Both the position numbers and the translations under genes were made by a program. DNA of 64,000 nt, from positions 1 to 64,000 of the forward strand of contig KV918808.1 of the NCBI GenBank assembly GCA_002049455.2, in the 5' to 3' direction. Origin of the DNA: Porphyra umbilicalis (lineage: Eukaryota > Rhodophyta > Bangiophyceae > Bangiales > Bangiaceae). The notes below the pieces were generated by a model that saw nothing but the letters and a program-made list of their open reading frames with translations, did no database searches and was not told the origin of the DNA. Below are positions 9,512 through 53,080 of this stretch, in pieces (positions within the stretch are counted from its first letter, which is position 1; each line of letters opens with the position of its first letter).

Positions 9512-10546
9512 ATGTACAGCATCGAGGTGCGCTTTGTCGCACTGTCTATGCTACACAACAATGTTCCTCGTGCAACGATCCACAAGAACATTGGCGTCCG
9601 CAAGTCGACGCTGAAGTCCTGGGCGACCTACTATCGGGATCACGGCTCGCAATGGCGCAACCCCGTCTACCGCAATTTACATGCTAGCAGTTGCTGGTTT
9701 GACGACCGACTGATGTCTGCGTTAGTGATGCTCGTTCGCAAGAACCCCCGGGCGCTGCTTCGGGAGCACGCGGCCACGCTCAAGGCGATGCGGGACCATC
9801 CCAGCGGGGAGATTGTGGGTCTTCGATGTTCTCAGAGCACCGTCGACCTGCACATGCGTCGACTTGGCTCTACCCGCAAGGTCGTGTTTCGACACTTTCG
9901 CGAGTCGTTGGAGCCTGTTCGTAGAGCGCACGTCGTTGCGCGACGGCGCATCCCGCGTCGGTGCATCGTCTCCGTCGACGAGACGCACACGGATGGTGGA
10001 GACATTTTTCGGCGGTATGGCCGCGCACTTGCACACGAGCGCACCCGTGAGCGTGGTCGGGATCCGAGAACGGTCCCCCGTACGAGCACAACCATGGCGG
10101 TGTCTGCGAACGGCCGCATTCTCGGCTTCCAGTCCGTCATAGTGCTCGACGGTGGGCTGAAGGCGGCCGACTCGCGTCTCTTCCTGCAGCTGCTTATCCC
10201 GAAGCTGGGCGTCTACGTTCCCGGTCATCCATGGCACCTGCAGGCGTCCAACTGCGTTGTCATGTTTGAAAATGCCCCCATCCACACCATGGGTGGCGAC
10301 CCGTTCCTTGCGAACAATGGTGTGCCGTTCTTGCGGTTGCCGGCGTACAGCCCCGACTTGCAGCCCATTGCAGGTCGTCTCAATCATCTCAAGGTCATGA
10401 TTCGAAATCTAGTGTGCGTTCAACCTGATCTTTTGGACAATCCACACCTTTCGCAAGCCCGTGCGGCGAGATATATCACTCGACGTCAGGTAATTGGACA
10501 ATTCGACCGGGTGGACAAGGTCATTGATGCGGTGCTGTCCCAATAA
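9512..10546 (+). CDS. Tc1/mariner-like (DDE_3) transposase with altered catalytic residues
   Basis: The ORF runs from ATG at 9512 to TAA at 10546 (344 residues), about the usual size for a Tc1/IS630-type transposase. The N-terminal 60 residues form a helix-turn-helix DNA-binding region (TIHKNIGVRKSTLKSW). The RNase H-fold catalytic core follows. The first Asp is present in VSVDETH. The second block, normally DNAPIH, reads FENAPIH (Asp to Glu). The last block, normally SPDLNPIE, reads SPDLQPIA (Glu lost). The frame is otherwise uninterrupted, unlike most neighbours. I found no terminal inverted repeats in the flanks. It may be a recently inactivated transposase or a domesticated DNA-binding derivative. 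A family with an unusual active site is less likely. Confidence 0.8.
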   Translation: MYSIEVRFVALSMLHNNVPRATIHKNIGVRKSTLKSWATYYRDHGSQWRNPVYRNLHASSCWFDDRLMSALVMLVRKNPRALLREHAATLKAMRDHPSGEIVGLRCSQSTVDLHMRRLGSTRKVVFRHFRESLEPVRRAHVVARRRIPRRCIVSVDETHTDGGDIFRRYGRALAHERTRERGRDPRTVPRTSTTMAVSANGRILGFQSVIVLDGGLKAADSRLFLQLLIPKLGVYVPGHPWHLQASNCVVMFENAPIHTMGGDPFLANNGVPFLRLPAYSPDLQPIAGRLNHLKVMIRNLVCVQPDLLDNPHLSQARAARYITRRQVIGQFDRVDKVIDAVLSQ

Positions 10547-20675: not shown

Positions 20676-21073
20676 TTTGAAGTGAGCGGTAGGTGGGTGC
20701 ATGCGATGCTATACTCGAGAGCGGTCTGAGGCGCGAGGCCAGCAGGCTCTTAAACCCTCCGTGTGCCTCTCTCGCCACGTTCTGCCGGCGCACACCCCGC
20801 CAGCGCAGTGCTCCCTCCCTTGCAGGGTACAAGCTTCCACCATCCCACAAATCGCGACGCCCCTCGATGAACCCACGACAATCTCCCCGAGCTCAGCTCC
20901 AAAAGGAGCTGCCCTCAGTATGCAAGTACAAGTAATTACATCAGACACATACAGCAATGCATGACAATGGCACAGCCAAACAAGCCGATGACCGCATGAG
21001 TACTCCCGGAATTAGCCAGGCAGTCCGCGGTAACTCCGACTTACCTGCGCGGGCTTGGGAAGCTGCCTCAACA
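20676..21073 (-). repeat. 3' LTR of family-2 copia
   Basis: 398 bp, homologous along its whole length to 26176-26573. It carries small differences from the 5' LTR, including loss of the terminal CA dinucleotide. It lies about 130 bp upstream of the zinc-finger gene. Confidence 0.9.
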
Positions 21074-21838
21074 CTCCCCCAGTGCCCCACAGTCCGCGCC
21101 ATGGACGCTTCGTCACGGCCACAGTGCGAGATCTTCCGCCAACAGCCGCGATCGAGAAAACGGCAAAGTCGATTTCATCGACTTCGCCGAAATCGGCTCG
21201 ACTTGCTGAACGCAGTAGGCCTACAGCTCCCAACGAGTCGAGCCGATTTCGGCCGAGTAACATCGACCTCCGACGAAGTCGCCAAAAATCACCAATGACG
21301 TGAAGCAGACGTCGAGGTGAGTACAGCGCACCCGGGCGCGCCTCGAACGGAGACGATCCGGCGCATCGGCGGCCCGTCAAAGTGCGGGCGTAAACGCAGC
21401 TGATCGACTTGGCCGAAATCGGCTCGACTCGCTGGGAGCAGTTGGCCTACTGCTCCCGGCCAAAATCGGGGCCCACTACTTCCTGCCAAAATCGACCAAA
21501 TTCGACTTGAACCAGACTCGATTCGGGCCCGTCGGGAGCAGTAGGCCGATTGCTCCCGGCCAAATGCAACTTCTACAAAATATAGACAAGGGCGACCATC
21601 GCGAACCCGCGGCTGCGCCACTGGACGTCCCCAGTGGCGCTACAGCGCCCCAGGACGGTCCCAACCGGCCGTCCCCCGAGTTTTCGCCCCGCGCGACCGC
21701 GCCTCATCGCGGGCTCCACGCAAGTGGACGGTAGCGCAACCGTCCACGGCCGACACCGGCCCGCAGCAAAGTCGACGGGGGTTGCTGCCACGAAGCCGGG
21801 GCTGCGCCACTGGACGCCACCAGTGGCGCCGTGGCGCC
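21074..21838 (-). other. Hairpin-rich 3' region of family-2 copia
   Basis: Between the pol stop and the 3' LTR there are at least six perfect stem-loops. They are 21186-21253 (18 bp arms, 32-nt loop), 21434-21457 (8 bp), 21534-21557 (7 bp), 21615-21640 (10 bp GCGCCACTGG, 6-nt loop), 21724-21747 (9 bp GTGGACGGT, 6-nt loop) and 21804-21829 (the same 10 bp stem as 21615, different loop). Several share words such as GCCGAAATCGGCTCGACT and GGGAGCAG. No ORF is supported. They could be RNA elements for packaging, export or end formation, or nested foldback insertions. Confidence 0.8.
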
Positions 21839-24800
21839 TCAGCACTCCCCCAAAGGGAGGTCGCCAAGCTCGGCGGCCTGCGCAACCGCGCCCAGGTCTT
21901 CACGAACCCCGACGGCAGCCCGGAAAGCCGTGAACGCTGGCGACGGCGGCGGCTTGGTGAGGCCATCCGCCGGCATTTCGACGCTCGGGAGGAAGTAGAG
22001 GGTCACATCCCCACGCGCCTGGTAGTCGCGAACCATGTGGTAGGCGACGTCGACATGCTTGGTCCGCCCCGTCTCCTCAGGGTTGTTGAGCAGCGCCAGG
22101 CAGGACTGGTTGTCCTCCCCCATCGCCACGGCTCCACCGTCGACGCCCAGAGCCGACATTAGCTTGCGAAGCCACAGCGCCTCCTTGGTCGCCATTGCGG
22201 CGGCCACGTACTCGGCGTCGGCCGTCGAGGTGGCCACGGTCGACTGGCACTTACTTGCCCACGCAATTGCCCCGCCATTGCAGATGAAGAAGTAGCTGGT
22301 TATCGACCGATGACCGTCGATGTCGCCGGCCCAGTCGGCGTCGACAAACCCTTGCAGCGGCTCGCTGCCGCTGTAGACCACACCCAGGCGAGTCGTCTCG
22401 CGCAGGTTGTGCAGAACCCCTTTGGCCGCGCCCATGTGGTCCTCCTCATGGCAGGACATGAAGCGCGACAGCACCCCCACGGCGAAGGAGATGTCTGGCC
22501 TTGTCGTGGTAGACAGGTAGAGGAGGGAGCCGACCAACTCCGCGTATCGGTTGCCCTCTGGCATCAGGCCCTCCCCTTTCTTGATCAGCTTGACTCCCGA
22601 CGCCATCGGCGTCTTGTATGGCGTCGCCTTGTCCATCCCGAACGCCTCCAGCAGCGTCGCGGTGTGCCCCGGGTTGCTCAACGTCAGAGTCTTGGCCGCC
22701 CGGTTGCGCATGACCTTCATGCCGGTAAAGTCCTTGACCTCTTCCATGTCGCGCACCTCAAACTTGGCAGACACGGAGCGCTTGACGGCCTCGACCCAAG
22801 CCAGCTTCTTGCCCGCCACGATCAGGTCGTCGACGTACACGAGGATGAAGATGCACCCGTGCACGGGGTGGGGCCACTCATAGAGGCACGGGTCCACCTC
22901 TGACCGGACCGCCCCCATCTCTTTTGAGCTCTTTTTCGAGCTTGATGCCCCACAGCCGCCCGGCCTGCTTTGTCCCGTAGAGCGCCAGGTTGAGCCGACA
23001 CATCTCCTCCAGCCCCTTCGGATCGACACCGTCGGGGAGTTCAATGTCCATCTCCTTGTCCATGTTGGCGTTGAGGAAGACTGTCTTGACGTCGACAAGG
23101 CGAATCTCCCAGCCCATGGCTGCCGACACAGCAAAGAGAGCACGTGTCGTGGCTGCGTTCGGTACCGGAGCCCACGTCTCGTGAAAGTCTCTTCCGGGCT
23201 CCTGGTTGAACCCTTGGGCCACGAGTCAAGCCGTTTAGCGCGTGAGCTTGCCCTCCGCGTCGTGGTTGATGTCGAACACGAATCGCGTCTTGATGGCCTC
23301 GTGATTCTTGTTGTTCCCCTTGGCCTTGGACCAGGTGCCAAGGTGCTTGTGTGCCGCCACCTCCTCCTTAAATTCTTGCTTCCACAGCGGCTAGTCAGGA
23401 CGAGCGCGCGCCTCCTTCTCGTTTTCAGGCGGCTTGTGCAAGTCTCAGCCCGCTTCAGCCGCGGACGCGTTACCGCTTGCCAGGTACGCCTTGAGTTCCT
23501 TCTCCCACCATGTTACATTGGGAGCTGGATTGCGCATCGAGCGACGAGGCCCCGGTGTGAGGCTTTCACTGGCCGCAGGTGCTTGAGCAGCTGCGGGTGT
23601 CGAGCCACCGACGCCGTCCTCGTCATCCTCCTGCCTATCGCCAGCAAAAGAGGGAGAACCGACTTCGTTGTCGCTGTCAGAGGGGTCGTCAAGGGAGTAC
23701 CTGTCCTCTCGTTTGCCTTCTGCGCCGAGCATGACCATTGACCCTCCCGTGGCGCCATCCTTGTCGCCGTCATATTCCGCAGTCAGCCGGGGACCAGCGC
23801 TTGACCCGACTGCTGACGTCTTGACCATTGCCGGGTTCTCCTCCATCAGCACGTCCCGACGCTCAAAGACTTGGTTTGTCCCGTCCTCGAGGATGCGGTA
23901 GGCCTTGCCACCGACAGTCTAGTCGACAAAGCGGCCGACGTCGGTCCTTGGCTCCAGCTTGCGCTGCTGCTTCCTCGGCTTCAGCGCCCACGCCCGACTC
24001 CCCCAAACGCGGAACTTCGCGACGTTGGGGCGTCGACCCTTCAAGCCATCGCGCGGCGTCACATCGAGCCCCGCCTCGGGAGATCGGTTGAGCACATGGA
24101 CGACGGATGCCAACGCCTCGGCCCACAGCTCTTCCTCCGCACCGGAGTTAAGCAGGGCAGCACGCACGCGCTTCATCAGCGTGCGGCTTACCCGCTCCGC
24201 CTTGCCGTTCTGTTGCGACTTGTACGGCGCCGTCATCTCAGACGTGATGCCCTTATCCTCGTACCACGCCTGAAGATCGTTCGTGACGTATTTCTTCGCA
24301 ACTTCGTGACGGACACGCTTCACTTTCACGCCCGTCAGCTTCTCAAGCTGCTTTAAGCGCGTCTTGAGCACCTCCGGCGCCATCCCCTTTTTCTTGATAG
24401 GCGTAGCCGTGATGAACCCCGTTGAGTCCTCCAGCGCCGTCAAAAAGAAGAGGGAGCCACCCAGCGACTCAGTGAGTGGGCCACCAATGTCGGTGTGCAC
24501 CAGTTCGCACTTGGTTGTCGCTGTCGACGAGCAGGGGCTGGGCGACTGAACCATCTTTCCGTCCACACACGGCACACACACCGTGCCAATGACGCGCGTG
24601 GCGTCTGCCACTGACGACGGCATGCCGTCGACCATTGTGGCCGCCCGCTTGAGGTTCTCCAACCCCAAGTGGTTGAACCGACGATGCCACAGCTCCGCCT
24701 CTCCAGCGATGCGCGTCGATGCCGCGCACGCCGAAGCCTTGACCGGCGTGACCTTGAGCACGTACTGCTCCAGGTCGTTGACTTTGCCGACAACGGACGC

Positions 24801-26018
24801 CTTGTCGAGCACTCCGCTCGAATAGACAGCATCCCCGTCGCTGAGGATGTAACAGGCGTTTCCGACTAACACTACCGCACCACGATTGCGGTCAACCGCT
24901 CGAACCGGGAGCAGGTTGCTGGTCAGGTCCGGCACGGGCATAGCCTGTCCGAGCACCATGCGCGTCTTGGTTTTGACCATGCCAACGTCCATGCATACGT
25001 GGACGTGCCCCTTGATGGGTTCCTTTTCGCCGTTGGCCAATGTGACCTCGGCCCCGCTTCCCGCCGTCCGGACGGTAAAGCCCTTATCCCCAGCGCCCAT
25101 GTTGTTGGTTGCGCCAGAGTCGAGCACCCAAATTGATGAACACAGGGAGCTCCTGCGAGCCTTGCTGCTCCCGGTATTTTCAGTAGAAGCAGTGTAGGCC
25201 AGAGCGGCACCCACGTGGGGCCCGCCGCCGTGACCGCCTTCACGGCCAGCACCGCCATGCTTGCCCTTAACCTTGGCCTCGTCCGCCTTCTTCTTGTGGC
25301 AGTCGCGCTGCATGTGTCCCTTATTGTTGCAGTAGAAGCATACGACCGACTTCTTGTCAAACGGTTTCTTAGGCGCCGCTGCCGCAGAGGCTTGTGACTT
25401 GACAATGCCAGGAGGCTTGGAAGCGCCGACAGGAATGCTCCGCTGCTCGACCTGAAGCAGTTTAGCCGTCACGTCCGACATGACGAGCTTGGTGTCCTCG
25501 TTCTCCAACACCGTCCTGAGCATCCCGTACTCTGCCAGGAGCCCTGCCAGGACACGCAGCGCAAGCGTGTTGTCGTTTACAGGGTTTCCAAGCATGGCGA
25601 GCTCGTCCCGGAGCATCTTGGCGCGCGACGCAAACTTGATGATGTTCTCGTCGCCGCCCTTCTTGAGGCTGCTCATCTCGTCAATGAGCCGCAGCAGCTG
25701 CGCGTTGTCTCGCGCCTCGGACATGACCTTGAGCGCGTCCCACGCCTCTTTAACCGTGTCCACTGACGTGACCGTGTTGAGGTGCACGGGCTTGACCGAC
25801 ATCTGGATGGTCGCCAGCGCCGCCTCGTACATGGCGTCTCACGCGTCGACCACCGGGTTGGACTTCTTGTCGTCGGACGAAGATGCCGGTCGGTCCGTCA
25901 AGACCGCCGCCCAGAGCTTCTCCTTCTTGAGCTGCGCACGCTGGTACGTTGCCCACACCTTGTAGTCGTCGTCCAGCGGCGCGAACCGCGGGCCGCCATA
26001 GCGGCCGTGGTCTGCCAT
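21839..26018 (-). pseudogene. Family-2 copia gag-pol polyprotein, interrupted
   Basis: ATG at 26016-26018. Order: gag with intact CCHC knuckle (CFYCNNKGHMQRDC), protease (WVLDSGATNNM), integrase (H-H zinc region LWHRRFNHLG, then CVPC), reverse transcriptase (LVYVDDLIVAG) and RNase H (DADWAGD...STADAEY). Integrase keeps the first Asp (HTDIGG) and the Glu (NGKAER), but the block around the second Asp, normally a DNGG/DGGKE motif, reads RHEVAKK. Breaks: TGA at 25839-25841 replacing Trp in the VVDAWDA region; TAG at 23919-23921; TGA at 23445-23447; TAG near 23391 replacing Trp before PLW; TAA and TGA near 23230 in the conserved LVAQGF block; and a frame change near 22910 inside reverse transcriptase. 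Copia order (integrase before RT) is clear. Confidence 0.9.
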
Positions 26019-26162
26019 GTTGACGACCTCGGCACCGCACAGCGCCGCCCTAACAAGGTAGGGACCAGAACACGCCCGCCCGACCTTGGAACACACCGCG
26101 ATCCCAGCGACGTCGTCTCACCAGCGACCGCAGGAAAGACGACGGTTGCCCCCAGCGACTGC

Positions 26163-26175
26163 TGGGCCCATAACC
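26163..26175 (-). other. Primer-binding site of family-2 copia
   Basis: Adjacent to the 5' LTR, the element strand reads GGTTATGGGCCCAGC. This matches the complement of the anticodon arm of eukaryotic initiator tRNA-Met (GCUGGGCCCAUAACC) rather than a tRNA 3' end. Drosophila copia is known to prime from a cleaved initiator tRNA-Met at this region. Confidence 0.8.
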
Positions 26176-26573
26176 TGTGAAGTGAGCAATGGTTGGGTGG
26201 ATGCGATGCTTTACTCGATAGCGGTCTGAGGCGCGAGGCCAGCAGGCTCTTAAACCCTCCGTGTGCCTCTCTCGTCACGGTCTGCCGGCGCACCCCCCGC
26301 CAGCGCAGTGCTCCCTCCCTTGCAGGGTACAAGCTTCCACCATCCCACAAATCGCGACGCCCCTCGATGAACCCACGACAATCTCCCCGAGCTCAGCTCC
26401 AAAAGGAGCTGCCCTCAGTATACAAGTACAAGTGATTACATCAGAGACATACAGCAATGCATGACAATGGCACAGCCAAACAAGCCGATGACCGCATGAG
26501 TACTCCCGGAATTAGCCAGGCAGTCCGCGGTAACTCCGACTTACCTGCGCGGGCTTGGGGGGCTGCCTCAACA
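26176..26573 (-). repeat. 5' LTR of family-2 copia
   Basis: 398 bp, ending TCAACA on the plus strand (TGTTGA at the element start) and beginning TGTGAAG (element end CACA). It pairs with 20676-21073. Confidence 0.9.
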
Positions 26574-27260: not shown

Positions 27261-27559
27261 CGAACCGCCAGTGGACTCGACGACGAGCATCACAGTTCAA
27301 CACGCTGCGGCAGCATAGTTCTTCCCGCGCCGCGTCCGATCTGAAAAATGGAGCGCCGGCGCGGTGTGCGGCTGTTCTGCCGTATGCGCCGCCGCATGCT
27401 GGGTTTCTGTGACGATCGTCCCCTGCACACGCCATCCTGCCCGTGTCTGTGGGCGGCGCGCACTCGGCCCATATCAGAGGCTCCACTACGAGCAGCTGGG
27501 GCCGATGCGCCACCACCTCAAGCTGTGCAACCTCCTTTCCTTGGTCCACTGCCGTCACG
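27261..27559. other. Short spacer before the 60 bp minisatellite
   Basis: About 300 bp with no supported gene. The open frames that enter the minisatellite from here carry no recognisable domain. Confidence 0.4.
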
Positions 27560-28330
27560 ACCGCCGAGCCCGCATCTTGAAGACCCGCGTCCCTCCGCGT
27601 GGCGGCCGCCGCCGATGCGGCCGCCCAGCCCATCCCGTCAAGGCCCGGGTCCCCCGAACAGGCGGCCGGGACCGTGCCTGCCGCCAAGCCCGCCCCTCCA
27701 AGGCCCGCGCTCTTCCGACTGGCGGCCGCCGCCGCAGCGGCCGCCGAGCCCGCTTCGTCAAGGCCGGCGTCCGCCCGGTCGGCGGCCGCCGCCGCAGCGG
27801 CCGCCAAGCCCGCCCCGTCAAGGCCTGCGTCCGCCCGATCGGCGGCCGAGACCTTGTCGGCCGCCAAGCCTGCCCCGTCAAGGCCTCCGTTTCAACATTG
27901 AACGGCCGGGCCTGTGTCGGCCGCCGAGCCCGCCCCATCAAGCCCCACACTCTTCCGACTGGCGGCCGCCGCCGCAGCGGCCGCCGAGCGCGCTTTTTAA
28001 AGGCCTGCGTCCCCTTAATTGGCGGCCGGCGCCCGCGCGGCCGCCGAGCCCAACTCACGCATGCCAGCCGTCGCGAGGCGGGCAGCCACTGGCGAGCCCA
28101 CCTGGAGCAAACGCGCCCCGTACCCAAGTCCGGCCGTCATCATCGGGTCCGAGGAGCCTTCCTCATCAAGGTGCATCTGGGTCAGCCTGGCGGCCGCCCC
28201 CGGCGCGGCCGCCAAGCCCACTCTGTCAAGGTACACCCTCTGCAACCCGGCGGCCGTCGCCCTAGTGGCCGCCGAGTCCCCCGAGCCCGCCGCGTCAAGG
28301 ACCACCTCCACCGACCTCGCCACCTGTCAG
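27560..28330. repeat. 60 bp minisatellite
   Basis: About a dozen units of exactly 60 bp, each centred on GGCGGCCG(CC)GCCG...GCGGCCGCCGAGCC...TCAAGGCC. All frames stay open because the unit is 20 codons long. The plus frame reads as Arg/Pro-rich repeats (RPPSPPRQG type) and the minus frame as Ala-rich repeats. Neither has independent coding support. Two GCGGCCGC octamers occur in many units. Confidence 0.85.
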
Positions 28331-31639: not shown

Positions 31640-32330
31640 CAGTCCTGCGGCTGTGAAACCACCTCCTGCGGCTGCAGGCGGACCGACAAAGCAGGCGGCC
31701 GCGGCGGCGGCGCCCGCACCAGCAGCTCCCTCTCCGCCACAAAAGCCCGCTTGCGAGTCGCCGCCGTCGGCGGCCGCCGAGCCACCAACGTCGGCAGCCA
31801 CGGCGGCGGCGGCCGCACCACCAGCTCCGTCTCCCCCACGCACGCCCGCTAGCGTGTCGCAGCCGGCGGCGTCCGCCGAGACACCAAAGTCGGCGGCCGC
31901 GGCGGCGGCGCCCGCACCACCAGCTGCTTCTCCTCCACGCACGCCCGCTGGCGAGGCGCCGCCGGCGGCGGCCGCCGAGCCGCCAAAGTCGGTTGCCACG
32001 GCGGCGGCGCCCGCACGACCAGTCGCTTCTCCGACACGGACGCCTGATTACGAGTCGCCGCCGGCGTGGGCCGCCGAGCCACCAAAGTGGGCGGCCGCGG
32101 CGTCGGCGCCCGCTCCACCAGCTCCTCCGCCGCTCCACACGCCCACTGGCAGGCCACCGCCGGCGGCCGCCGCCGGGCGAACCAGACCGGCGGCCGCGGC
32201 GGTGGCACCCGCACCATCAGCTTCTCCGCCACCGCCAGCGCCTGCTGGCGATCGATCGCTGGCGGACGCCACCGCGGCGCCAAAGCTGGCGGCCGCGGCA
32301 GCGGCGCCATCGGCACTAGCTCCTCCCTGC
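31640..32330. repeat. 99 bp minisatellite
   Basis: About seven copies of a 99 bp unit (33 codons) containing GGCGGCCGC and CACGCCCGCTGGCGA-like blocks. Units are aligned at, for example, 31817 and 31916. Plus-strand reading gives an Ala/Pro-rich repeat (SPPRTPAGEAPP type), minus-strand reading an Arg/Pro-rich one. It lies immediately past the end of the Harbinger transposase. Confidence 0.85.
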
Positions 32331-32473
32331 CCAGCTGCGCCGGCGAAGGGGTCTCCGCCGGCGGCCGCCGCCGATTCGACATCGCCGGCGGCTGCCGCAC
32401 CAGATCCCGTATCACCAGCCCAGCCGACGTCGCCTGCGCCACCAGCATGGCCATCATCGGCGGTGGCCGCAGG

Positions 32474-40735: not shown

Positions 40736-41984
40736 TCATGCATTACGTCCCACTGACAGCTTCTTCAATTCATCCGCCAAGAGGTACGTATAGCTGTTCG
40801 AGAGCCGCTGCACCACCACCGGAGCATGGCAACCAATGAGACGCCTCTGCGCCGGACAGCCGTGGCGAAGTCGATCGTGCTCGCTCCCGAACATGATCGG
40901 TGCGCAGCGCAGACAGCACAGAGGAGCAGTAGGTCCAGCTTCTTCTCCTAGCTGTTCAATGCACGTTGGGCAGACAATGACAGAGCGCCAAACGACTACA
41001 CCGCAATGAGGGCAAGACGTGCCATCAACTGAATAGTCTGTGACTGATCCCGCATCCTCATTGGGCAGCACCAAGGCTGTCCCGTTCGGCTGTACGGAGT
41101 TGTGCACGATACATTCGTCACGTCCATGGATGCCCGCATCATGTCGACGATGGTGGCCTTCCTGCCAGCCCAGTCTGTGTCTGGTCCCATCTGCAAAAAG
41201 GCCTGCGTATCGTCAAGGTACTTTCCCAGGTACGTCACCATGACTTTGATATCCCGTTGGAACTGTTCTGGCTCTGACGAATGATGCGTTTTCGCGTCGC
41301 CGCTCCACCATTCCCCAGCAGCGAGCTTCTGGGTCGCAAGCACCAGCAGCTTTTCCAAGTAGATGTGGATAGTCAGCTTATTGCGCCAGTGCTCGGCCTG
41401 TTCAATTGCGTGAGAAAACCTGGCTGTGCAGGCATTGTTCACGGCGGTGGCCACGTTTGGTCCCCCATTGAAGCCGCTGTAGAGGACGCCGTAACCCGTG
41501 ACATCAGAGTCCCAAGGCTCCATCATGTGGAATCCAACTCGTACACCACGAGCCAGAAGCAGCGTTGCAGGCCGCATGCACGCCTTCGCAGCAAGAACTG
41601 TCCGTACGTCACCGCCGGCCGCTTCCAATACAACCGGGTACATAAGCTCTCGCATCACGTGCTCCGCGAGAGGGCGTTCCGACGCCGGGATGAACCACCA
41701 AAACTTTCTCGCTCCGGCCTGCAAGTACGAACATGATTGCAACGGACTGTCCTCAACGTGCCAGCTAAAGTGAGAGCCTTGGGACCCAACGTACAGCAAG
41801 CTCGTGTTGATACCTTCGTATGTGGACGCTGCGCCAAGCATAGTGTGTTGATTCAATGTGCGAGGGTTCCCAAATCGCTGACGAGGCGGGCAAGCATCGG
41901 CATGAGCAGTACACGCAGGGTCACCGAGACTCCTACTGCACCCATCCTTGTTGGCAGGTGACATGTCTGAAAGATGGTACACAT
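40736..41984 (-). pseudogene. JmjC-domain protein, C-terminal part (split by copia array)
   Basis: JmjC enzymes are Fe(II)/2-oxoglutarate oxygenases, many of them histone lysine demethylases. Visible here: GINTSLLYVGSQGSHFSWHVED with the Fe-binding H-x-E (codons at 41758-41760 and 41752-41754), then SCSYLQAGARKFWWFIP, and LYSGFNGGPNVATAVN where families have YHSGFN, so the third Fe ligand His is replaced. After a frame change near 41107 the frame continues with a Cys-rich tail (CPHC, CPTC, CCLRC, ending near 40736), reminiscent of the C5HC2 finger of JARID/KDM5-like proteins. The 5' side ends exactly at the copia target duplication (41980-41984); its upstream part lies at 52209-53080. Confidence 0.8.
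41980..41984. repeat. 5 bp target-site duplication (left)
   Basis: CACAT immediately precedes the first LTR and recurs immediately after the third LTR at 52209-52213. Confidence 0.85.
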
Positions 41985-42528
41985 TGTTGAAACGCAATGG
42001 GGCTAGGGGATGGGGGACCACGGTGAAGTGGTTCAGTGGCTTGAGCTTGTGTGTATGTGTGCGAATGTGCTTTGTTGGTTGTCTCTCCAAAGCGCCCCTC
42101 TTCCCATCAAGGGCACTCCTCAAGTAGTCCAAGTCGGAGCACTCAAGCCCACCACGCAGCCCAAGCAGCTCGCCCGCGCACGCGCCCGCCCACACTCTAA
42201 ATCAAAACGCTCACTAAATCAAAACATCAGGGATCAAAGCAAAGCCCACGCAAATCAAAGCATCAGAAGCGCTAGAACAAAAAATGTGAATTCGCAAAAG
42301 TTTCACTCAAAATCGCACGGGTACAAATGTCGAATGCACCAGCGGTCACCAAACCGCGAGGAAGTCGCATGGGTAGCCTATTGGGAAGTAGGCACCCACT
42401 CTCATTCAGCGTGACCTTCGGGTCGCGTCCGTGAGTCGGGGGTTCGAACCCTGTCAATACCTGGTTTCTTGAATTTTACTTTTTACAGCAGGAGGGCCTA
42501 CAGCGGCGTTGAGCATGACGTTCCAGCA
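41985..42528 (-). repeat. LTR 1 (outer, 3' LTR of copy 1)
   Basis: 544 bp. It differs from LTRs 2 and 3 near its left end (for example CGCAATGGGGC against CGCAGTGGGAA, and GGTTCAG against GGTTGAG) but matches LTR 2 in the right half. Confidence 0.95.
42376..42460 (+). other. tRNA-like module inside each family-1 LTR
   Basis: In order: a D-arm-like stem-loop at 42376-42393 (GCCTA-TTGGGAAG-TAGGC), a 7 bp stem with a TTCG loop at 42410-42427 resembling a long variable arm, and a perfect Pol III B-box word GGTTCGAACCC at 42441-42451. The acceptor stem does not pair and the T-stem is imperfect, so it is not a functional tRNA. The same module recurs at +4840 and +9680 (the third copy with changes). 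It could be an old tRNA or SINE capture. Confidence 0.5.
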
Positions 42529-42709
42529 CGCCCCGTTGCTTGACGCCGCCTGACAGCTAACCGCCCGTGAAGTACTTGTCGAGAAGGAAGTCCGCCTGGA
42601 ATCTTGACGTCCCAAATCCGATGCCGCCTGTCATGGCCGCCTTGGAGTTGCAATGTACTTGCATCCTGCTTTACTTACACCCTCATGTACTTATGGCGCG
42701 TACTTGAAG

Positions 42710-45700
42710 TCAACACCTCCCCATCGTCTTGACATGCTTGTCTTGCTTGACCTTGGCGAGCTCCTTCGTCATCGGGTCTGCCGCCATCTCGTTCGTTGGG
42801 CAGTGCTCGAGGATGACCTTGTCCGTCGTGATCGCATCCCGCACAAAGTGGTAGCGAATGTCAATGTGCTTGGTGCGCTTGTGGTCGACGGGATTCTTGG
42901 CGAAGTCGATGCAGCCGCTGTTTTCGACCTCGATGTTAACCGGCCCAACCAAGTTGCCCGACTGCGTCACGAGCATGGTGACGCGTTGGATGAGCTTGTC
43001 GAGCCAAACAGCTTCCTTGCTGGCCTCGCAAAGAGCCATGTACTCCGCCTCCTTGGTAGATAGTGCCACCATCTTTTGCAACTTCGTAGCCCAGCTGACG
43101 GCCGCCCCGCCAAAGACGAACATGGAGCCCGTCGTAGACCGACGCGTCTCGTAGTCACCTGCCCAGTCGGCATCGCTGAAACCTTTGAGGATGCCCGACG
43201 CGGACTTGTTGTAGGCCAGGCCCTTGTCGACAGACCCCTTGACATATCGGAGGACGCGCTTCACAGCCGCCCAGTGCTCCTTCCCGTAGCCCGACACGAA
43301 ACGGCTTAGCTTGCCGACCGCAAAGGCGAGATCAGGACGCGTCCCGACCATCAGGTACATCAGGCTTCCGACGGCCTCGCGATAAGGAAGAAACTCGTCG
43401 CTCTTCTCCGACTTAGCCAGCTGCAGCGCGACCTCCAACGGAGTCGCGATCGGGTTGCACTCCGCCATACCGAACTTCTCGCGCACTTGTCCCGCGTACT
43501 TGCCCTGCGAAAGCTTGAGGGTGTCCAACGTCTTGTCACGGCTGATCTCTAGCCCGAGGATGACCTTGGCCTCGCCCAGGTCCTTCATCTCGAAGCGCTT
43601 GCGAAGCGCCTTCTTGATTTTTTGAATCGCCTCCATGCTTGACCCGACCAGAAGAAGATCGTCGACGTACACCAGGACGATGATGATCTCACCGTCATCC
43701 ATCTGGAGGTAGAGGCAGGCATCCGGGGCGATGTTGTCAAACCCTTGCGACTTGAGGAAGGCGTCGAGCTTAGCGTACCACATCTTGGGGGCTTGCTTAA
43801 GCCCATACAGCGCTTGGAGAAGACGGCACATCTTGTCCGGATACGTGGGATCGACGTATCCCTCCGGCTGCTCCATGTAGACCTCCTCGTCAAGGTCGCC
43901 GTTCAGGAAGGCCGTCTTGACGTCCATCTGATGCAGCTCCCACCCGTTCGCCGCCGTCATCGCCAGGATGCATCGGATGGTAGTGAACTTGGCCACCGGC
44001 GCAAACGTCTCGTTGAAGTCAAGCCCCTTGATCTGCCGGTTACCCATAAAGCACAGGCGCGCCTTGTGCCGCGTCGTGTTGTTTTCGACCTTGTCCAGCT
44101 CGTCCTTGACCTTGTAAACCCACTTGCCCTTGAGCACGCGTCGTCCGACCGGGCGATCCGTCAAACGCCATATCTTGTTCTTGCGGATAGAGTCCACTAC
44201 CTGGTCCATTGCGGCCCGCCACTTGGTCTACTCTTGTCCTTGAACTGCTTGCCCATACGTCATGGGAGCCTCATGAGCAACGAGGCTCACTGAACGCCAG
44301 TACTCAACCGGCGGCCTCCGCGATCTGCCGCTCCGACGCAGCGTGTCTTGAGATCCGGCAGAACCTTGATTGGCGTCTGCCGATTTGTCCGAGCCATCAT
44401 CTTGCTGGTCGTCTCCGCCGTCATCTTCAGCGTCGACGTCTTGGTCGTCTTCAGCGTCGACGTCTTGGTCGTCGCTGCCGGCATCCAAGCCCGTCTCGCC
44501 TTTCACGACTTCGTCCACGGGTGAGTCCTCTGGAACATCTACAACCTTGCTTGAGTTGTTCTCGGAGAAAACGACGCTTCGCGCCTTGACGACCTTGCCG
44601 TCGTCGAGGATGACCTTGTACGCCGTGCTGCCGTCGGGATAGCCCACGAAAATGCCCTTTGCCGCCTTGTCTCCAAACTTGCCATCGACGTGGCTCTTGT
44701 GCAGTACCACCCAGCATGTTGACCCAAACACCCGCATGTGGCTTACGTCGGCCTTGTTTCCGGTCTATAGCTCATGAGGCGTCTTGTCTACGGGAAGCGC
44801 ACGGCTGGTGACGCGGTTCTTGATGTAGACCGCCAACTTTATGGCATCCGCCCAGAGATCCTGGTCGACGTCCTTGTGTCGCATCATGGTGCGTGCCATC
44901 TCCACGAGAACTCGGTGGAGTCGCTCAGCAACCCCGTTCTGCTGCGGCGTGTCGGGCACCGTCGTCTGGTGCGTCGTGCCGTTCTCATCGTGAAGTGCCT
45001 TGAATGCGGACGAAACGTACTCGCCGCCGTTGTCGGACCGGAGCACCTTGATCTTGTTGCCGGTGTGCAGCTGTGCGTTGGTCAGCCACTTCTTGTACTC
45101 CGCGAGAAGATCGCTCTACTTGTGCAAGAAGACCACGTCCGTCCAGCGGGAGAAGTTGTCGTTGAACGTGCAGAAGTAGACCACTCCGCCTCGAGAGGGT
45201 TCTGACATAGGTCCACCGAGGTCCGAGTGCACGAGCTGGAGCCGCCTGGTCACACGAACGCCTCTTGCGCTGGGCATAGGCGTCATTGCCGCCTTGCCGT
45301 ACACGCACGGCTCGCAGATGTCCTTGACCACCATGGAAGGGCGCTTGAGTCCGTCTACGTCCTTGTTGTTGATCATCCTCTTGACGCCGGCCACGTTCAC
45401 GTGGCCAAGACGCTCATGCCATAGCTGCAGAGAGGCCACCGCAGCAACATCCGACGTAGGGGCCATGTCCAGGTGGGAGAGCCCGTTCTTACGCGTCCCG
45501 CACGCAGCAGTCTTCTAGTTTATCTTGATGATGGACATACCGCGCTTGAATGACACTTCCGCACCGCGTTCCTCCATCATGCCGACCGACATGAGAATGA
45601 AGCCCATAGTAGGAACATGGAGCACCTTCTCCAACTTGATCTTGCGCGTCTTGCCGTGAACGATGACATTGAGCACGACGGTTCCGACGCCCGCCGTGGC

Positions 45701-46660
45701 CACGGACCCCTTGTCACCCATCGTGACTCTTCGTCCCGTGGTCGTCTTGTAGTCATCAAAGCACGCTCGCATCCAGCACATGTGTGCAGACGATGCAGAG
45801 TCGACAAGCCACGACTTGGAAATGTCATCGTTGTCATCCGCGTTGATAACGAGACAGATGGCGTCGTCGCTGTCGCTACCGATATCAGCCGCAATCGCGG
45901 CCACCTTGTCCTGTCTCTGCTTCTTGGCCTTGAGCTCTGGGCAATCATGAGCGATGGGCCCAAACTTGTGGCAGTAGTAGCACTCGATCTTGAAAAGGTC
46001 ACCACGGCAGCCTTGATCTTGATAGTTGGCGCCGACGAGTGCCATGTCACCAATGCGCTTGATCGCCGGTGACTTTCCCACCTGACGCCGTTCCTCCTGA
46101 AGCAAGCGGCTTTTGACAAAGTCGAGGCTTAGCTTGTCCTCGCCCTTGGCGTCTAGAGCCACCAGCAGGTTCTCATACTTTGACGTCAGCCCGTTGAAAA
46201 CGCTCATGGCGACATCCATCTCCGTCAACTCGCCGCCCATGGCCTTGAGGTTCTCGCCGAGGTTGCGCACGCGGTTGATATAGCCCAGCATGCCCTCGCC
46301 GACGTTCATCGCGACGGTGTAGAATTCGCGTCGCGCCTTCAGCTTGTTCATCAAACTCTTGCGCTGGAAGACACCTTGCAGCGTCGACCACATTTCCGCC
46401 GTCGTCTTGCACCCCGACACGTGCTCGAGCTGCTCAGACCCAAGGGTGAGCCCGATGATGGCGCTCGCCTTCGTGTCTCGACGCTTCCACACCGCCAACT
46501 CGCGGTCCTCCGCGTCCGTCGGCTTGCCGTCTTCGTCGAGCATGTCGTCCAGATCGCGCAGCGCCAGGATCATCTTGATCCGCTGGCGCTACTCGTGGAA
46601 GTTCTTTTCCGTCAACTTGTCAATCTTGATGCCGCCCATGCCGGCTGCGCCACCGTCCAT
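42710..46660 (-). pseudogene. Family-1 copia gag-pol polyprotein, copy 1 (five in-frame TAG)
   Basis: One frame of about 1317 codons from ATG 46658-46660 to 42710, interrupted only by TAG at 46589-46591, 45515-45517, 45116-45118, 44765-44767 and 44228-44230. There are no frameshifts, TAA or TGA. Domains: gag; knuckle CYYCHKFGPIAHDC, in which the expected His after Gly is Pro; protease WLVDSASSAHM; integrase with WHERLGH, CEPCVYGK, HSDLGG, SDNGGEY and NGVAERLH (complete DD35E set); reverse transcriptase YVDDLLLVG; RNase H SDADWAGDYETRRSTTGS. The first TAG aligns with Trp in the local relative at 26.6 kb (FHDWRQR). The fourth falls at the usual Trp of the copia PYELWTG block. Confidence 0.9.
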
Positions 46661-46811
46661 GATGCCTGCTTGTCGTAGCGCTTCCCGATCTTTCCGAACC
46701 TTGCGCCTTGACCGTCACGTCCTTGAACCACCTTGCACTCGTCTTCTTCGCACTTGTCGCGAACGCCGCGACGCCGTCTCGCACACCTTGCCCTTGTCAC
46801 AGCCCCGGCTC

Positions 46812-46824
46812 TGGGCCCATAACC
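46812..46824 (-). other. Primer-binding site, copia copy 1
   Basis: TGGGCCCATAACC on the plus strand directly abuts the LTR start at 46825. It matches the anticodon arm of initiator tRNA-Met. The same site is at 51652-51664 for copy 2. Confidence 0.8.
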
Positions 46825-47368
46825 TGTTGAAACGCAGTGGGAATAGGGGATGGGGGACCACGGTGAAGTGGTTGAGTGGCTTGAGCTTGTGTGTATGTGT
46901 GCGAATGTGCTTTGTTGGTTGTCTCTCCAAAGCGCCCCTCTTCCCATCAAGGGCACTCCTCAAGTAGGCCAAGTCGGAGCACTCAAGCCCACCACGCAGC
47001 CCAAGCAGCTCGCCCGCGCACGCGCCCGCCCACACTCTAAATCAAAACGCTCACCAAATCAAAACATCAGGGATCAAAGCAAAGCCCACGCAAATCAAAG
47101 CATCAGAAGCGCTAGAACAAAAAATGTGAATTCGCAAAAGTTTCACTCAAAATCGCACGGGTACAAATGTCGAATGCACCAGCGGTCACCAAACCGCGAG
47201 GAAGTCGCATGGGTAGCCTATTGGGAAGTAGGCACCCACTCTCATTCAGCGTGACCTTCGGGTCGCGTCCGTGAGTCGGGGGTTCGAACCCTGTCAATAC
47301 CTGGTTTCTTGAATTTTACTTTTTACAGCAGGAGGGCCTACAGCGGCGTTGAGCATGACGTTCCAGCA
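46825..47368 (-). repeat. LTR 2 (shared middle LTR, mosaic)
   Basis: 544 bp, serving as 5' LTR of copy 1 and 3' LTR of copy 2. Near its left end it carries LTR 3 variants; from about 47,060 rightward it carries LTR 1 variants. It also has one private change (AAGTAGGCC). Confidence 0.95.
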
Positions 47369-47549
47369 CGCCCCGTTGCTTGACGCCGCCTGACAGCTAA
47401 CCGCCCGTGAAGTACTTGTCGAGAAGGAAGTCCGCCTGGAATCTTGACGTCCCAAATCCGATGCCGCCTGTCATGGCCGCCTTGGAGTTGCAATGTACTT
47501 GCATCCTGCTTTACTTACACCCTCATGTACTTATGGCGCGTACTTGAAG

Positions 47550-50500
47550 TCAACACCTCCCCATCGTCTTGACATGCTTGTCGTGCTTGACCTTGGCGAG
47601 CTCCTTCGTCATCGGGTCTGCCGCCATCTCGTTCGTTGGGCAGTGCTCGAGGATGACCTTGTCCGTCGTGATCGCATCCCGCACAAAGTGGTAGCGAATG
47701 TCAATGTGCTTGGTGCGCTTGTGGTCGACGGGATTCTTGGCGAAGTCGATGCAGCCGCTGTTTTCGACCTCGATGTTAACCGGCCCAACCAAGTTGCCCG
47801 ACTGCGTCACGAGCATGGTGACGCGTTGGATGAGCTTGTCGAGCCAAACAGCTTCCTTGCTGGCCTCGCAAAGAGCCATGTACTCCGCCTCCTTGGTAGA
47901 TAGTGCCACCATCTTTTGCAACTTCGAAGCCCAGCTCACGGCCGCCCCGCCAAAGACGAACATGGAGCCCGTCGTAGACCGCCGCGTCTCGTAGTCACCT
48001 GCCCAGTCGGCATCGCTGAAACCTTTGAGGATGCCTGACGCGGACTTGTTGTAGGCCAGGCCCTTGTCGACAGACCCCTTGACATATCGGAGGACGCGCT
48101 TCACAGCCGCCCAGTGCTCCTTCCCGTAGCCCGACACGAAACGGCTTAGCTTGCCGACCGCAAAGGCGAGATCAGGACGCGTCCCGACCATCAGGTACAT
48201 CAGGCTTCCGACGGCCTCGCGATAAGGAAGAAACTCGTCGCTCTTCTCCGACTTAGCCAGCTGCAGCGCGACCTCCAACGGAGTCGCGATCGGGTTGCAC
48301 TCCGCCATACCGAACTTCTCGCGCACTTGTCCCGCGTACTTGCCCTGCGAAAGCTTGAGGGTGTCCAACGTCTTGTCACGGCTGATCTCTAGCCCGAGGA
48401 TGACCTTGGCCTCGCCCAGGTCCTTCATCTCGAAGCGCTTGCGAAGCGCCTTCTTGATTTTTTGAATCGCCTCCATGCTTGACCCGACCAGAAGAAGATC
48501 GTCGACGTACACCAGGACGATGATGATCTCACCGTCATCCATCTGGAGGTAGAGGCAGGCATCCGGGGCGATGTTGTCAAACCCTTGCGACTTGAGGAAG
48601 GCGTCGAGCTTAGCGTACCACATCTTGGGGGCTTGCTTAAGCCCATACAGCGCTTGGAGAAGACGGCACATCTTGTCCGGATACGTGGGATCGACGTATC
48701 CCTCCGGCTGCTCCATGTAGACCTCCTCGTCAAGGTCGCCGTTCAGGAAGGCCGTCTTGACGTCCATCTGATGCAGCTCCCACCCGTTCGCCGCCGTCAT
48801 CGCCAGGATGCATCGGATGGTAGTGAACTTGGCCACCGGCGCAAACGTCTCGTTGAAGTCAAGCCCCTTGATCTGCCGGTTACCCATAAAGCACAGGCGC
48901 GCCTTGTGCCGCGTCGTGTTGTTTTCGACCTTGTCCAGCTCGTCCTTGACCTTGTAAACCCACTTGCCCTTGCGCACGCGTCGTCCGACCGGGCGATCCG
49001 TCAAACGCCATATCTTGTTCTTGCGGATAGAGTCCACTACCTGGTCCATTGCGGCCCGCCACTTGGTCTACTCTTGTCCTTGAACTGCTTGCCCATACGT
49101 CATGGGAGCCTCATGAGCAACGAGGCTCACTGAACGCCAGTACTCAACCGGCGGCCTCCGCGATCTGCCGCTCCGACGCAGCGTGTCTTGAGATCCGGCA
49201 GAACCTTGATTGGCGTCTGCCGATTTGTCCGAGCCATCATCTTGCTGGTCGTCTCCGCCGTCATCTTCAGCGTCGACGTCTTGGTCGTCTTCAGCGTCGA
49301 CGTCTTGGTCGTCGCTGCCGGCATCCAAGCCCGTCTCGCCTTTCACGACTTCGTCCACGGGTGAGTCCTCTGGAACATCTACAACCTTGCTTGAGTTGTT
49401 CTCGGAGAAAACGACGCTTCGCGCCTTGACGACCTTGCCGTCGTCGAGGATGACCTTGTACGCCGTGCTGCCGTCGGGATAGCCCACGAAAATGCCCTTT
49501 GCCGCCTTGTCTCCAAACTTGCCATCGACGTGGCTCTTGTGCAGTACCACCCAGCATGTTGACCCAAACACCCGCATGTGGCTTACGTCGGCCTTGTTTC
49601 CGGTCTATAGCTCATGAGGCGTCTTGTCTACGGGAAGCGCACGGCTGGTGACGCGGTTCTTGATGTAGACCGCCAACTTTATGGCATCCGCCCAGAGATC
49701 CTGGTCGACGTCCTTGTGTCGCATCATGGTGCGTGCCATCTCCACGAGAACTCGGTGGAGTCGCTCAGCAACCCCGTTCTGCTGCGGCGTGTCGGGCACC
49801 GTCGTCTGGTGCGTCGTGCCGTTCTCATCGTGAAGTGCCTTGAATGCGGACGAAACGTACTCGCCGCCGTTGTCGGACCGGAGCACCTTGATCTTGTTGC
49901 CGGTGTGCAGCTGTGCGTTGGTCAGCCACTTCTTGTACTCCGCGAGAAGATCGCTCTACTTGTGCAAGAAGACCACGTCCGTCCAGCGGGAGAAGTCGTC
50001 GTTGAACGTGCAGAAGTAGACCACTCCGCCTCGAGAGGGTTCTGACATAGGTCCACCGAGGTCCGAGTGCACGAGCTGGAGCCGCCTGGTCACACGAACG
50101 CCTCTTGCGCTGGGCATAGGCGTCATTGCCGCCTTGCCGTACACGCACGGCTCGCAGATGTCCTTGACCACCATGGAAGGGCGCTTGAGTCCGTCTACGT
50201 CCTTGTTGTTGATCATCCTCTTGACGCCGGCCACGTTCACGTGGCCAAGACGCTCATGCCATAGCTGCAGAGAGGCCACCGCAGCAACATCCGACGTAGG
50301 GGCCATGTCCAGGTGGGAGAGCCCGTTCTTACGCGTCCCGCACGCAGCAGTCTTCTAGTTTATCTTGATGATGGACATACCGCGCTTGAATGACACTTCC
50401 GCACCGCGTTCCTCCATCATGCCGACCGACATGAGAATGAAGCCCATAGTAGGAACATGGAGCACCTTCTCCAACTTGACCTTGCGCGTCTTGCCGTGAA

Positions 50501-51500
50501 CGATGACATTGAGCACGACGGTTCCGACGCCCGCCGTGGCCACGGACCCCTTGTCACCCATCGTGACTCTTCGTCCCGTGGTCGTCTTGTAGTCATCAAA
50601 GCACGCTCGCATCCAGCACATGTGTGCAGACGATGCAGAGTCGACAAGCCACGACTTGGAAATGTCATCGTTGTCATCCGCGTTGATAACGAGACAGATG
50701 GCGTCGTCGCTGTCGCTACCGATATCAGCCGCAATCGCGGCCACCTTGTCCTGTCTCTGCTTCTTGGCCTTGAGCTCTGGGCAATCATGAGCGATGGGCC
50801 CAAACTTGTGGCAGTAGTAGCACTCGATCTTGAAAAGGTCACCACGGCAGCCTTGATCTTGATAGTTGGCGCCGACGAGTGCCATGTCACCAATGCGCTT
50901 GATCGCCGGTGACTTTCCCACCTGACGCCGTTCCTCCTGAAGCAAGCGGCTTTTGACAAAGTCGAGGCTTAGCTTGTCCTCGCCCTTGGCGTCTAGAGCC
51001 ACCAGCAGGTTCTCATACTTTGACGTCAGCCCGTTGAAAACGCTCATGGCGACATCCATCTCCGTCAACTCGCCGCCCATGGCCTTGAGGTTCTCGCCGA
51101 GGTTGCGCACGCGGTTGATATAGCCCAGCATGCCCTCGCCGACGTTCATCGCGACGGTGTAGAATTCGCGTCGCGCCTTCAGCTTGTTCATCAAACTCTT
51201 GCGCTGGAAGACACCTTGCAGCGTCGACCACATTTCCGCCGTCGTCTTGCACCCCGACACGTGCTCGAGCTGCTCAGACCCAAGGGTGAGCCCGATGATG
51301 GCGCTCGCCTTCGTGTCTCGACGCTTCCACACCGCCAACTCGCGGTCCTCCGCGTCCGTCGGCTTGCCGTCTTCGTCGAGCATGTCGTCCAGATCGCGCA
51401 GCGCCAGGATCATCTTGATCCGCTGGCGCTACTCGTGGAAGTTCTTTTCCGTCAACTTGTCAATCTTGATGCCGCCCATGCCGGCTGCGCCACCGTCCAT
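47550..51500 (-). pseudogene. Family-1 copia gag-pol polyprotein, copy 2 (same five TAG)
   Basis: This lies 4840 bp from copy 1 and is almost identical. TAG codons are at 51429-51431, 50355-50357, 49956-49958, 49605-49607 and 49068-49070, all shared with copy 1. Residue differences between the copies are few (for example Ile/Val before KLEKVL, Asn/Asp in FND[N/D]FSR, Leu/Arg in RRV[L/R]KGK, Thr/Ser in SWA[T/S]KLQK, Gln/His in KVK[Q/H]DK). All domains match copy 1, including the Pro in the zinc knuckle. Confidence 0.9.
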
Positions 51501-51664
51501 GATGCCTGCTTGTCGTAGCGCTTCCCGATCTTTCCGAACCTTGCGCCTTGACCGTCACGTCCTTGAACCACCTTGCACTCGTCTTCTTCGCACTTGTCGC
51601 GAACGCCGCGACGCCGTCTCGCACACCTTGCCCTTGTCACAGCCCCGGCTCTGGGCCCATAACC

Positions 51665-52208
51665 TGTTGAAACGCAGTGGGAATAGGGGATGGGGGACCA
51701 CGGTGAAGTGGTTGAGTGGCTTGAGCTTGTGTGTATGTGTGCGAATGTGCTTTGTTGGTTGTCTCTCCAAAGCGCCCCTCTTCCCATCAAGGGCACTCCT
51801 CAAGTAGTCCAAGTCGGAGCACTCAAGCCCACCACGCAGCCCAAGCAGCTCGCCCGCGCACGCGCCCGCCCACACTCTAAGTCAAAACGCTCACCAAATC
51901 AAAGCATCAGGGATCAAAGCAAAGCCCACGCAAATCAAAGCATCAGAAGAGCTAGAACAAAAAATGTGAAATCGCAAAATGTTCCCTCAAAAGCGCACGG
52001 GTACAAATGTCGAATGCACCAGCGGTCACCAAACCGCGAGGAAGTTGCATGGGAAGCCTATTGGGAAGTAGGCACCCACTCTCATTAGGCGTGACCTGCG
52101 GGTCGCGTCCGTGAGTCGGGGGTTCGAACCCTGTCAATACCTGGTTTCTTGAATTTTACTTTTTACAGCAGGCGGGCTTACAGCGGCGTTGAGCATGACG
52201 TTCCAGCA
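51665..52208 (-). repeat. LTR 3 (outer, 5' LTR of copy 2)
   Basis: 544 bp. Its right half is the most diverged of the three (for example AAATGTTCCCTCAAAAGCG against AAAGTTTCACTCAAAATCG, and AGGCGGGCTTAC against AGGAGGGCCTAC). Its left end matches LTR 2. The target duplication CACAT follows at 52209. Confidence 0.95.
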
Positions 52209-52213
52209 CACAT
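52209..52213. repeat. 5 bp target-site duplication (right)
   Basis: CACAT, matching 41980-41984, at the outer edge of LTR 3. Confidence 0.85.
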
Positions 52214-53080
52214 CCACGGGATCAAGGGCTCCTCCCATCTCAGCCCTGTCTTTGCATGCAGCTGTGACTCATCGTTCCCAAGTCGCGCTGGGATCGTTCA
52301 CACTGGCAAGGAAGCGCGTCACACCGAAGTTTCGGTAGGCGGCTTGAAGGGCGTTTGCACTCACACCGACTTTGGCTCTGAGTTCCACACCTGAAATACG
52401 ATTTTGCCTTTCTGATGACAGCTGTGCCCTGAAGTCTGTGCGCTTGACGCTGAGGTCAGGCGCAGGCCTACCAGAGAATGATTCGCACATTACGGTAGGG
52501 AGCTGCGGAAAGGTTTGAAGGCGCACTCTGAGATTGTCCCCGGAATGTCGCTTTGGCAGTCGAATAGAGACGGGATGCCTCTCGCGTGCTACTAATCGGA
52601 ACACGTCCGCGCCAAATTGCCTGATGATGCACTATTCGACCGAATCAGTCCGTGCAATCTCAACTCAGGAACAGAATGTAACTCAGTCACAGGAACGGAG
52701 TAGAAATCCTTGGCACGTCGCGTCGGAGACCCAAGCACTTGCGCAAACATTTTGTCACCACCGCGTCCGTCCTTGGGCTTCCCGCCCGCATCCATGGCAA
52801 TTTTCCTGCAAACAGTGGCGTCAGGAGCTTCTTGGCTGGTACCCGGCATTTGCTCGTGGAGTTTCTCTGGCGATGTAGGATGTCTTCTGGCAACTCCAGG
52901 CTTCTGAATGCTCTGTATCGGTGCGAGAGTTGCGCTGGGGACTCCCTCAATTCCTCTGGCCATGTCGTTTGAGGGAAGAGTGCCGGCCATGACGTTTATG
53001 TCATCTGCATCAACGCTAGACAACGAATCATCGCGCCGTGAGGCGAGAGCCACGCACAGCAAAGAAGGATCACTGACCAA
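52209..53080 (-). pseudogene. JmjC protein, N-terminal part (split by copia array)
   Basis: Immediately right of the array, the minus strand reads ...ALDPVDV up to the duplication and then continues in phase with VYHLSDMSPANK on the other side (41.98 kb) when one CACAT is removed. Upstream it contains one TGA (52269-52271). Its open frame (52604-52269) is joined by a frame change to another (53080-52592) rich in Ser and charged residues. No separate domain is recognised in this part. The assignment to the JmjC gene rests on adjacency, strand and phase. Confidence 0.55.

Follow-up and report, generated by a model that had tools for sequence, protein, structure and literature searches.

How does a long terminal repeat (LTR) retrotransposon that occupies one insertion site come to hold three LTRs and two internal regions? 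The question is raised by a locus of the red alga Porphyra umbilicalis, at positions 41,985 to 52,208 of a window that comprises bases 1-64000 of contig C48 (KV918808.1), in an assembly of 83.8 Mb in 665 contigs (GCA_002049455.2). Here, a broken Ty1/copia-type element forms a tandem array whose middle LTR is a mosaic of the outer two. The array was probably made by unequal recombination, LTR with LTR, at an element already resident at the locus; we place the probability of this reading at about 0.8.

The array and its insertion site

Three LTRs (544 bp each) alternate with two internal regions (4296 bp each), giving a period of exactly 4840 bp. The element lies in minus orientation, which makes LTR1, on the left, its 3' LTR and LTR3, on the right, its 5' LTR. 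The parts of the array are these:

41980..41984, unstranded: CACAT target-site duplication, left copy, the 5 bases by which the flank matches overlap at paralogous empty sites
41985..42528, minus strand: LTR1, the 3' LTR of the element and left LTR of the array
42529..46824, minus strand: internal region 1, a gag-pol frame with five in-frame stops
46825..47368, minus strand: LTR2, the mosaic middle LTR
47369..51664, minus strand: internal region 2, with the same five stops as region 1
51665..52208, minus strand: LTR3, the 5' LTR of the element and right LTR of the array
52209..52213, unstranded: CACAT target-site duplication, right copy

The two internal regions differ at 8 of 4296 positions, by substitutions only and with no insertion or deletion (indel). 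A single CACAT pair abuts the array, one copy ending at 41984 and the other starting at 52209, and there is no N inside the window, nor in the other loci checked. A first-pass annotation of the window had claimed this same layout (three 544-bp LTRs, two internal regions, the 4840-bp period and one CACAT pair), and coordinates and counts agree with it.

Empty sites are available for comparison. Nineteen paralogous copies of the target match both flanks (85-94% identity) with no array between them. In 18 of these, what the two flank matches have in common is precisely the 5-base duplication, while the copy on contig C175 has an overlap of 4; the overlaps were taken from the match tables of both flanks, with two paralogues checked directly. 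Three of the 19 copies (those on C35, C189 and C368) are truncated or disrupted at a greater distance from the site. Because the flank matches at the paralogous empty sites overlap by the bases of the duplication, the whole array occupies one insertion site.

The target is itself a dispersed repeat, with an open reading frame (ORF) that encodes a JmjC domain (40996-42195, minus strand; flanks 41400-41984 and 52209-52800). The insertion stands at the N-terminal side of this ORF. Beyond the 19 copies at 85-94%, the repeat has further copies near 70-75% identity.

The mosaic middle LTR

Counted over 544 positions, LTR1 and LTR2 have 6 differences, LTR2 and LTR3 have 16, and LTR1 and LTR3 have 20. 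LTR2 agrees with LTR3 at LTR sites 13, 18, 19, 50 and 231. It agrees with LTR1 at sites 217, 240, 286, 307, 316, 317, 321 and 329, and also at 382, 390, 423, 424, 434, 509 and 514; at site 144, LTR2 alone differs. Read in site order, LTR2 is like LTR3 four times, like LTR1 once, like LTR3 once, and then like LTR1 at 14 sites in succession. The mosaic had been proposed in the first-pass annotation, and it is borne out by sites 13, 18, 19 and 50, by the run of 14 variable sites that starts at 240 and ends at 514, and by the rare bases considered below.

To know who shares with whom by descent, of course, one must know which base is new. The direction of change was set against 52 other LTRs of the family, from a 55-LTR set that left out alignments shorter than 530 bp; that set includes LTRs of other arrays, and the 52 reference LTRs are not independent. 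Site 316 aside, nine derived bases fall in the line of LTR1 and ten in that of LTR3, as is expected of two LTRs ageing side by side. LTR2 has a derived base in common with LTR3 at site 18, and with LTR1 at 307, 423, 424 and 514. Site 240, polymorphic in the family, is weaker, and site 316 cannot be polarised. A star-like history of the three LTRs without exchange was considered and rejected, as the shared derived bases flip sides; nor can any exchange-free branching order give both sharings, unless site 18 changed twice.

Where, then, does LTR2 switch? Site 217 (window 47041) is like LTR1 and site 231 (window 47055) like LTR3, which puts the two out of order, and a single switch cannot be fitted without at least one exception. 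Two intervals are equally good by that count, and a switch between 217 and 231 would need two exceptions. The first-pass annotation had set the switch at 47,040-47,060; this localisation falls, since site 217, in conflict with 231, was overlooked. The alignment of the three LTRs that it proposed as a check gives a switch order beyond chance, and the single switch point it looked for comes only at the price of one exception. The two intervals are:

46875..47040, unstranded: likelier switch interval, LTR sites 51-216, requiring that site 231 of LTR1 changed later
47056..47063, unstranded: alternative switch interval, LTR sites 232-239, requiring that site 217 of LTR3 changed later

Both are workable, because the odd bases at 217 and 231 are both derived and each is limited to one outer LTR. 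By length, the interval at LTR sites 51-216 would be favoured about 20 times over that at 232-239. The internal rate leads one to expect about 1.5 later changes in the three LTRs together; two are needed (144, and either 217 or 231).

Other arrays of the family

With queries made from the middle LTR and its two internal neighbours, at least five full-length junctions are found, at four or more loci and identically for each query: C48, C29 (two junctions), C189 and C127, each named for its contig. These counts are lower bounds, from 40-41 matches listed of about 740 candidates. The C29 array has four LTRs and three internal regions of 4280 bp, with CGTCT on either side. That of C189 has three LTRs and two identical internal regions of 4300 bp, between flanks CCCGG and CCTGG. 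The locus at C127:98753-120298 is a composite, in which one 4286-bp unit stands beside five units of about 2.7 kb, with seven LTRs; being a composite with no matching target-site duplication pair, it was excluded from the mosaic test. Its LTR at 103583 is divergent on the right side and joins both kinds of unit, as an exchange between different insertions would.

C29 and C189 have the same mosaic order as C48. In C29, sites 8 and 26, an inserted base at 28, and site 48 are common to LTR2, LTR3 and LTR4, and sites 272 and 286 to LTR1, LTR2 and LTR3. In C189, site 17 stands on one side and sites 423, 492 and 504 on the other; here a single switch is clean, though on one left site only.

Two tests address the order. 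The first counts rare bases, those present at <=15% in the rest of the family, that the middle LTR has in common with one outer LTR. Going from left to right, C48 has one such base shared with the right LTR and then five shared with the left; C29 has four and then two; C189 has one and then three. This is the predicted order in all three arrays, with no exception. Of 477 control triples, built from 9 single-element LTR pairs and 53 other LTRs, 2 have rare bases in common with each of the outer LTRs, one of the two in the predicted order. The rare-base sharing is a firmer sign of the mosaic than the second test.

That second test is an exact rank test, which gives p=1.3e-4 for C48, or 8.4e-4 with adjacent changes merged. 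Taken with the merged value, C29 (2.4e-3) and C189 (0.14) bring the combined p to 3.7e-5. Controls came from 20 partner windows. Thirteen of these contained a complete LTR and served as pairs; a further 4 contained part of one, and the remaining 3 had no LTR. The resulting 461 triples have at least 6 informative sites each, those with fewer having been excluded; 9 of the 13 pairs contribute to them, and only 159 of the 461 are able to reach p<=0.01. In the predicted direction, none of the 461 does so, and 6 have p<=0.05. When unrelated LTRs take the place of the middle LTR, p<=0.01 is seen in 0/52 cases for C48 and 0/51 for C29; the same control is uninformative for C189, where none of 52 could reach that level.

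Timing of the duplication

The outer LTRs of the C48 array differ at 20/544 positions (3.7%), against 8/4296 (0.19%) for its internal regions (p 1e-13). The same excess is found in C29 (14/546 against 9/4280, p 1.5e-8) and in C189 (7/545 against 0/4300, p 2e-7). LTR pairs from single elements of the family (13 pairs) carry 1 to 20 substitutions, which puts C48, with 20, at the old end.

Both units of C48 have the same five in-frame stops, all five of them TAG. At these five places, stops occur in other family matches at 0/40, 1/38, 0/36, 0/12 and 0/16, where the counts are of matches, some from overlapping loci. Because the outer LTRs are far more diverged than the internal regions, and because the stops are shared, the duplication must have come after insertion and decay. 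From the ratio of internal to outer-LTR divergence, the age of the duplication would be about 5% of that of the insertion. With six units from three other loci as reference, the eight internal differences resolve into three derived in unit 1, four in unit 2 and one that is ambiguous. Two independent insertions, or one nested in the other, were also considered; these were rejected on the one pair of target-site duplications and on the shared, nearly locus-private stops.

Proposed mechanism

The history that we propose begins with a single insertion of one Ty1/copia-type element, on the minus strand, within a copy of the dispersed JmjC-coding repeat, as the single target-site duplication and the paralogous empty sites show. 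Its two LTRs then diverged, and its gag-pol frame gathered stops before any doubling. Two copies of the locus, presumably on sister chromatids or homologues, would next have been misaligned by one element length and undergone homologous recombination, LTR with LTR. The new middle LTR would consist of the left part of LTR3 and the right part of LTR1, with the internal region doubled. Since then, 3-4 private changes have arisen in each unit.

This delivers the order that is observed. When the right LTR of one copy recombines with the left LTR of a second, the product reads, in order: left LTR; internal region; a middle LTR that is first right-like and then left-like; internal region; right LTR. 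The mosaic order alone is, of course, no proof of a crossover between sister copies; a cDNA of this locus, a reinserted circle or misjoined alleles would give the same order. A popped-out circle that returns by recombination is simply the two-step form of the same exchange between LTRs. Of the unequal crossover between sister copies that had been claimed in the first pass, the crossover is supported by the predicted order in three arrays, and a duplication after insertion by the excess of divergence and the shared stops; the localisation is not supported, and sister copies are not proven by the mosaic.

Competing explanations

Several observations weigh against recombination at a resident element. 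The left side of the mosaic rests on one shared derived site, 18 in C48 and 17 in C189. One later change is needed per array to account for sites out of order, these being 217/231 in C48 and 505 in C29. C189 alone is not significant in the rank test, and it is the weakest of the arrays because a contig overlap breaks inside it: contig C35 ends inside a copy of the start of the C189 array (6288 bp at 100% identity). In the direction opposite to that predicted, 46 of the 461 control triples have p<=0.01 and 54 have p<=0.05; all 46 come from a single element, C209, one of the 9 control elements. The rank p-values are therefore too small, through clustering of mutations or exchange in single elements. 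The switch intervals of the three arrays have two stretches in common (LTR ~180-216 and 232-239), and a switch position shared by all three can be what a fixed U3/R border would give. Last, the array is described as it stands in the assembly sequence.

C209 deserves a word in its own right. It is a two-LTR element (C209:47862-53217) in which the changes private to the left LTR and those private to the right LTR lie on opposite halves, in the reverse of the order seen in the arrays. This is possibly conversion between its own LTRs, or chance.

The array might, of course, be no array at all. If the assembly had linked two alleles of one element through an LTR, the same mosaic would result, and the sister array C189 does lie at an assembly break. 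However, no second contig was found to carry the flanks of C48, the next matches being at 94% (left) and 93% (right); there are no Ns in the window or in the loci checked, there is no indel between the units, and both units have private substitutions. Further, an array of four LTRs exists at C29. An artefact is accordingly unlikely. To about the same degree, we doubt that this copia family builds arrays as a habit, through its own cDNA circles or through recombination focused at LTR ~180-216 or 232-239 in place of random crossover.

A slightly poorer prospect is that C48 itself recaptured its own complementary DNA (cDNA). Here, RNA from the locus would be reverse-transcribed, and a one-LTR circle would recombine into the internal region of its parent. 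A new LTR made by reverse transcription takes its U3 from the 3' LTR and its U5 from the 5' LTR. The element being on the minus strand, this predicts the same order, with U3 from LTR1 (the right part) and R-U5 from LTR3 (the left), and the three switch intervals do fit one fixed position. However, the product would have to return to its own parent in three separate arrays, and not to the other copies of a family in which at least 40 LTR matches were scored of 710-743 candidates. The C48 parent, moreover, has in-frame stops, and would presumably need help in trans. This route is disfavoured as improbable.

Gene conversion fares worse. If an array arose by any route and its LTR ends were later homogenised among units, conversion within the array would leave only the outermost ends untouched; the disorder at sites 217/231 could reflect a short patch, and the one-sided clustering in C209 hints that LTRs exchange in single elements too. 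Yet more events are required than one crossover, and the private differences of the C29 units (about 4, 5 and 3) are spread over the units. We consider this quite improbable. Insertion as a ready-made tandem, which the single duplication pair around the whole array would suit, is practically excluded: LTR and internal divergence should then match, where 20/544 and 8/4296 are found, and outer LTRs identical at birth could not each share derived bases with the middle one, so that only extreme later conversion of the internal regions could rescue it.

Coding content and other features of the window

The coding remnants of unit 1 include three segments recognised by domain matches:

42710..44209, minus strand: reverse transcriptase segment (RVT_2, E 5.9e-74)
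44228..44737, minus strand: integrase SH3-like segment (E 4.6e-17)
45515..46573, minus strand: copia-type gag and Pol beta-barrel segment (Retrotran_gag_2, E 2.1e-33)

Gag, the integrase segment and RVT_2 thus succeed each other from right to left, on the minus strand, with the SH3-like integrase segment upstream of RVT_2 in the coding direction. The LTRs are of the TG...CA type with a 5-bp target duplication, as in Ty1/copia. As judged from sequence, by RVT_2 together with the copia-type gag, the C48 element is a Ty1/copia LTR retrotransposon. Directly after the LTR stands GGTTATGGGCCCAG, a candidate tRNA primer-binding site, which may resemble the initiator-tRNA half site of Drosophila copia. 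A protein search with the reverse transcriptase returned mostly metagenome proteins among the best 120 of 7907 matches; tRNA and Rfam searches yielded nothing of use.

The earliest of the five stops immediately precedes the first ATG in what is left of the gag frame, and the true start of gag may come after it. There is no need to have TAG read as an amino acid under a changed genetic code: in the three C29 units that frame is uninterrupted for 1251 codons, and the C189 and C127 units have TAA and TGA stops.

The window also holds a second copia element (20678-26477), whose LTRs are spaced by 5.5 kb. Among the best 40 of 264 candidates of its family, there is no same-strand pair at about 5.5 kb, and no tandem array, in contrast to the first family. 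Direct repeats at 27483-28279 (spacing 60 bp) and 31665-32357 (spacing 99 bp) overlap long open frames that possibly encode repeat proteins. Pfam matches on nine other ORFs of the window gave nothing beyond one weak DDE_3 transposase-like match (9497-10546, plus strand), under the curated cut-off.

Comparison with known systems

Old elements with diverged LTRs hold a built-in test of how an array arose: the polarised variants of the middle LTR, combined with the ratio of LTR to internal divergence. In C48, both parts indicate that the array formed once the element was in place, through recombination at that resident copy. Mosaic order by itself cannot separate crossover from recapture of an element's own cDNA; the scatter of switch points can. 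Literature searches, covering titles and the starts of abstracts with most subscription papers outside reach, returned no report of a mosaic middle LTR. A term search of the main text of a 2025 study of such arrays (PMC11899658) likewise gave no match to "mosaic", "chimer" or "recombinant".

That study describes tandem LTR-retrotransposon arrays as common in plants, with gypsy elements forming more of them than copia, and leaves tandem insertion versus recombination undecided. Its tandem elements of rice and other plants (TLI1, TLI2) have three LTRs, two internal regions and one pair of target-site duplications, as C48 has, and TLI2 is nested in another repeat, like the C48 array. The C48 array, in contrast, is copia, and its polarised LTR variants speak against tandem insertion, which is undecided for the TLI arrays.

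Tandem arrays are also described for Cassandra and for terminal-repeat retrotransposons in miniature (TRIMs) (PMC7215508, PMC4717578); for Cassandra, unequal crossing-over and recombination between LTRs have been considered. Those elements lack the coding domains, whereas C48 is a full-size copia with remnants of gag and pol. Yeast tandem elements, as cited in PMC11899658, come from integrase-independent integration into resident copies and have the same kind of final structure as C48. In yeast, however, an incoming copy enters the resident element, while the middle LTR of C48 has private variants of both resident LTRs. Thus, C48 is a known kind of structure, one that brings evidence to a question of origin that was called open in 2025 (PMC11899658).

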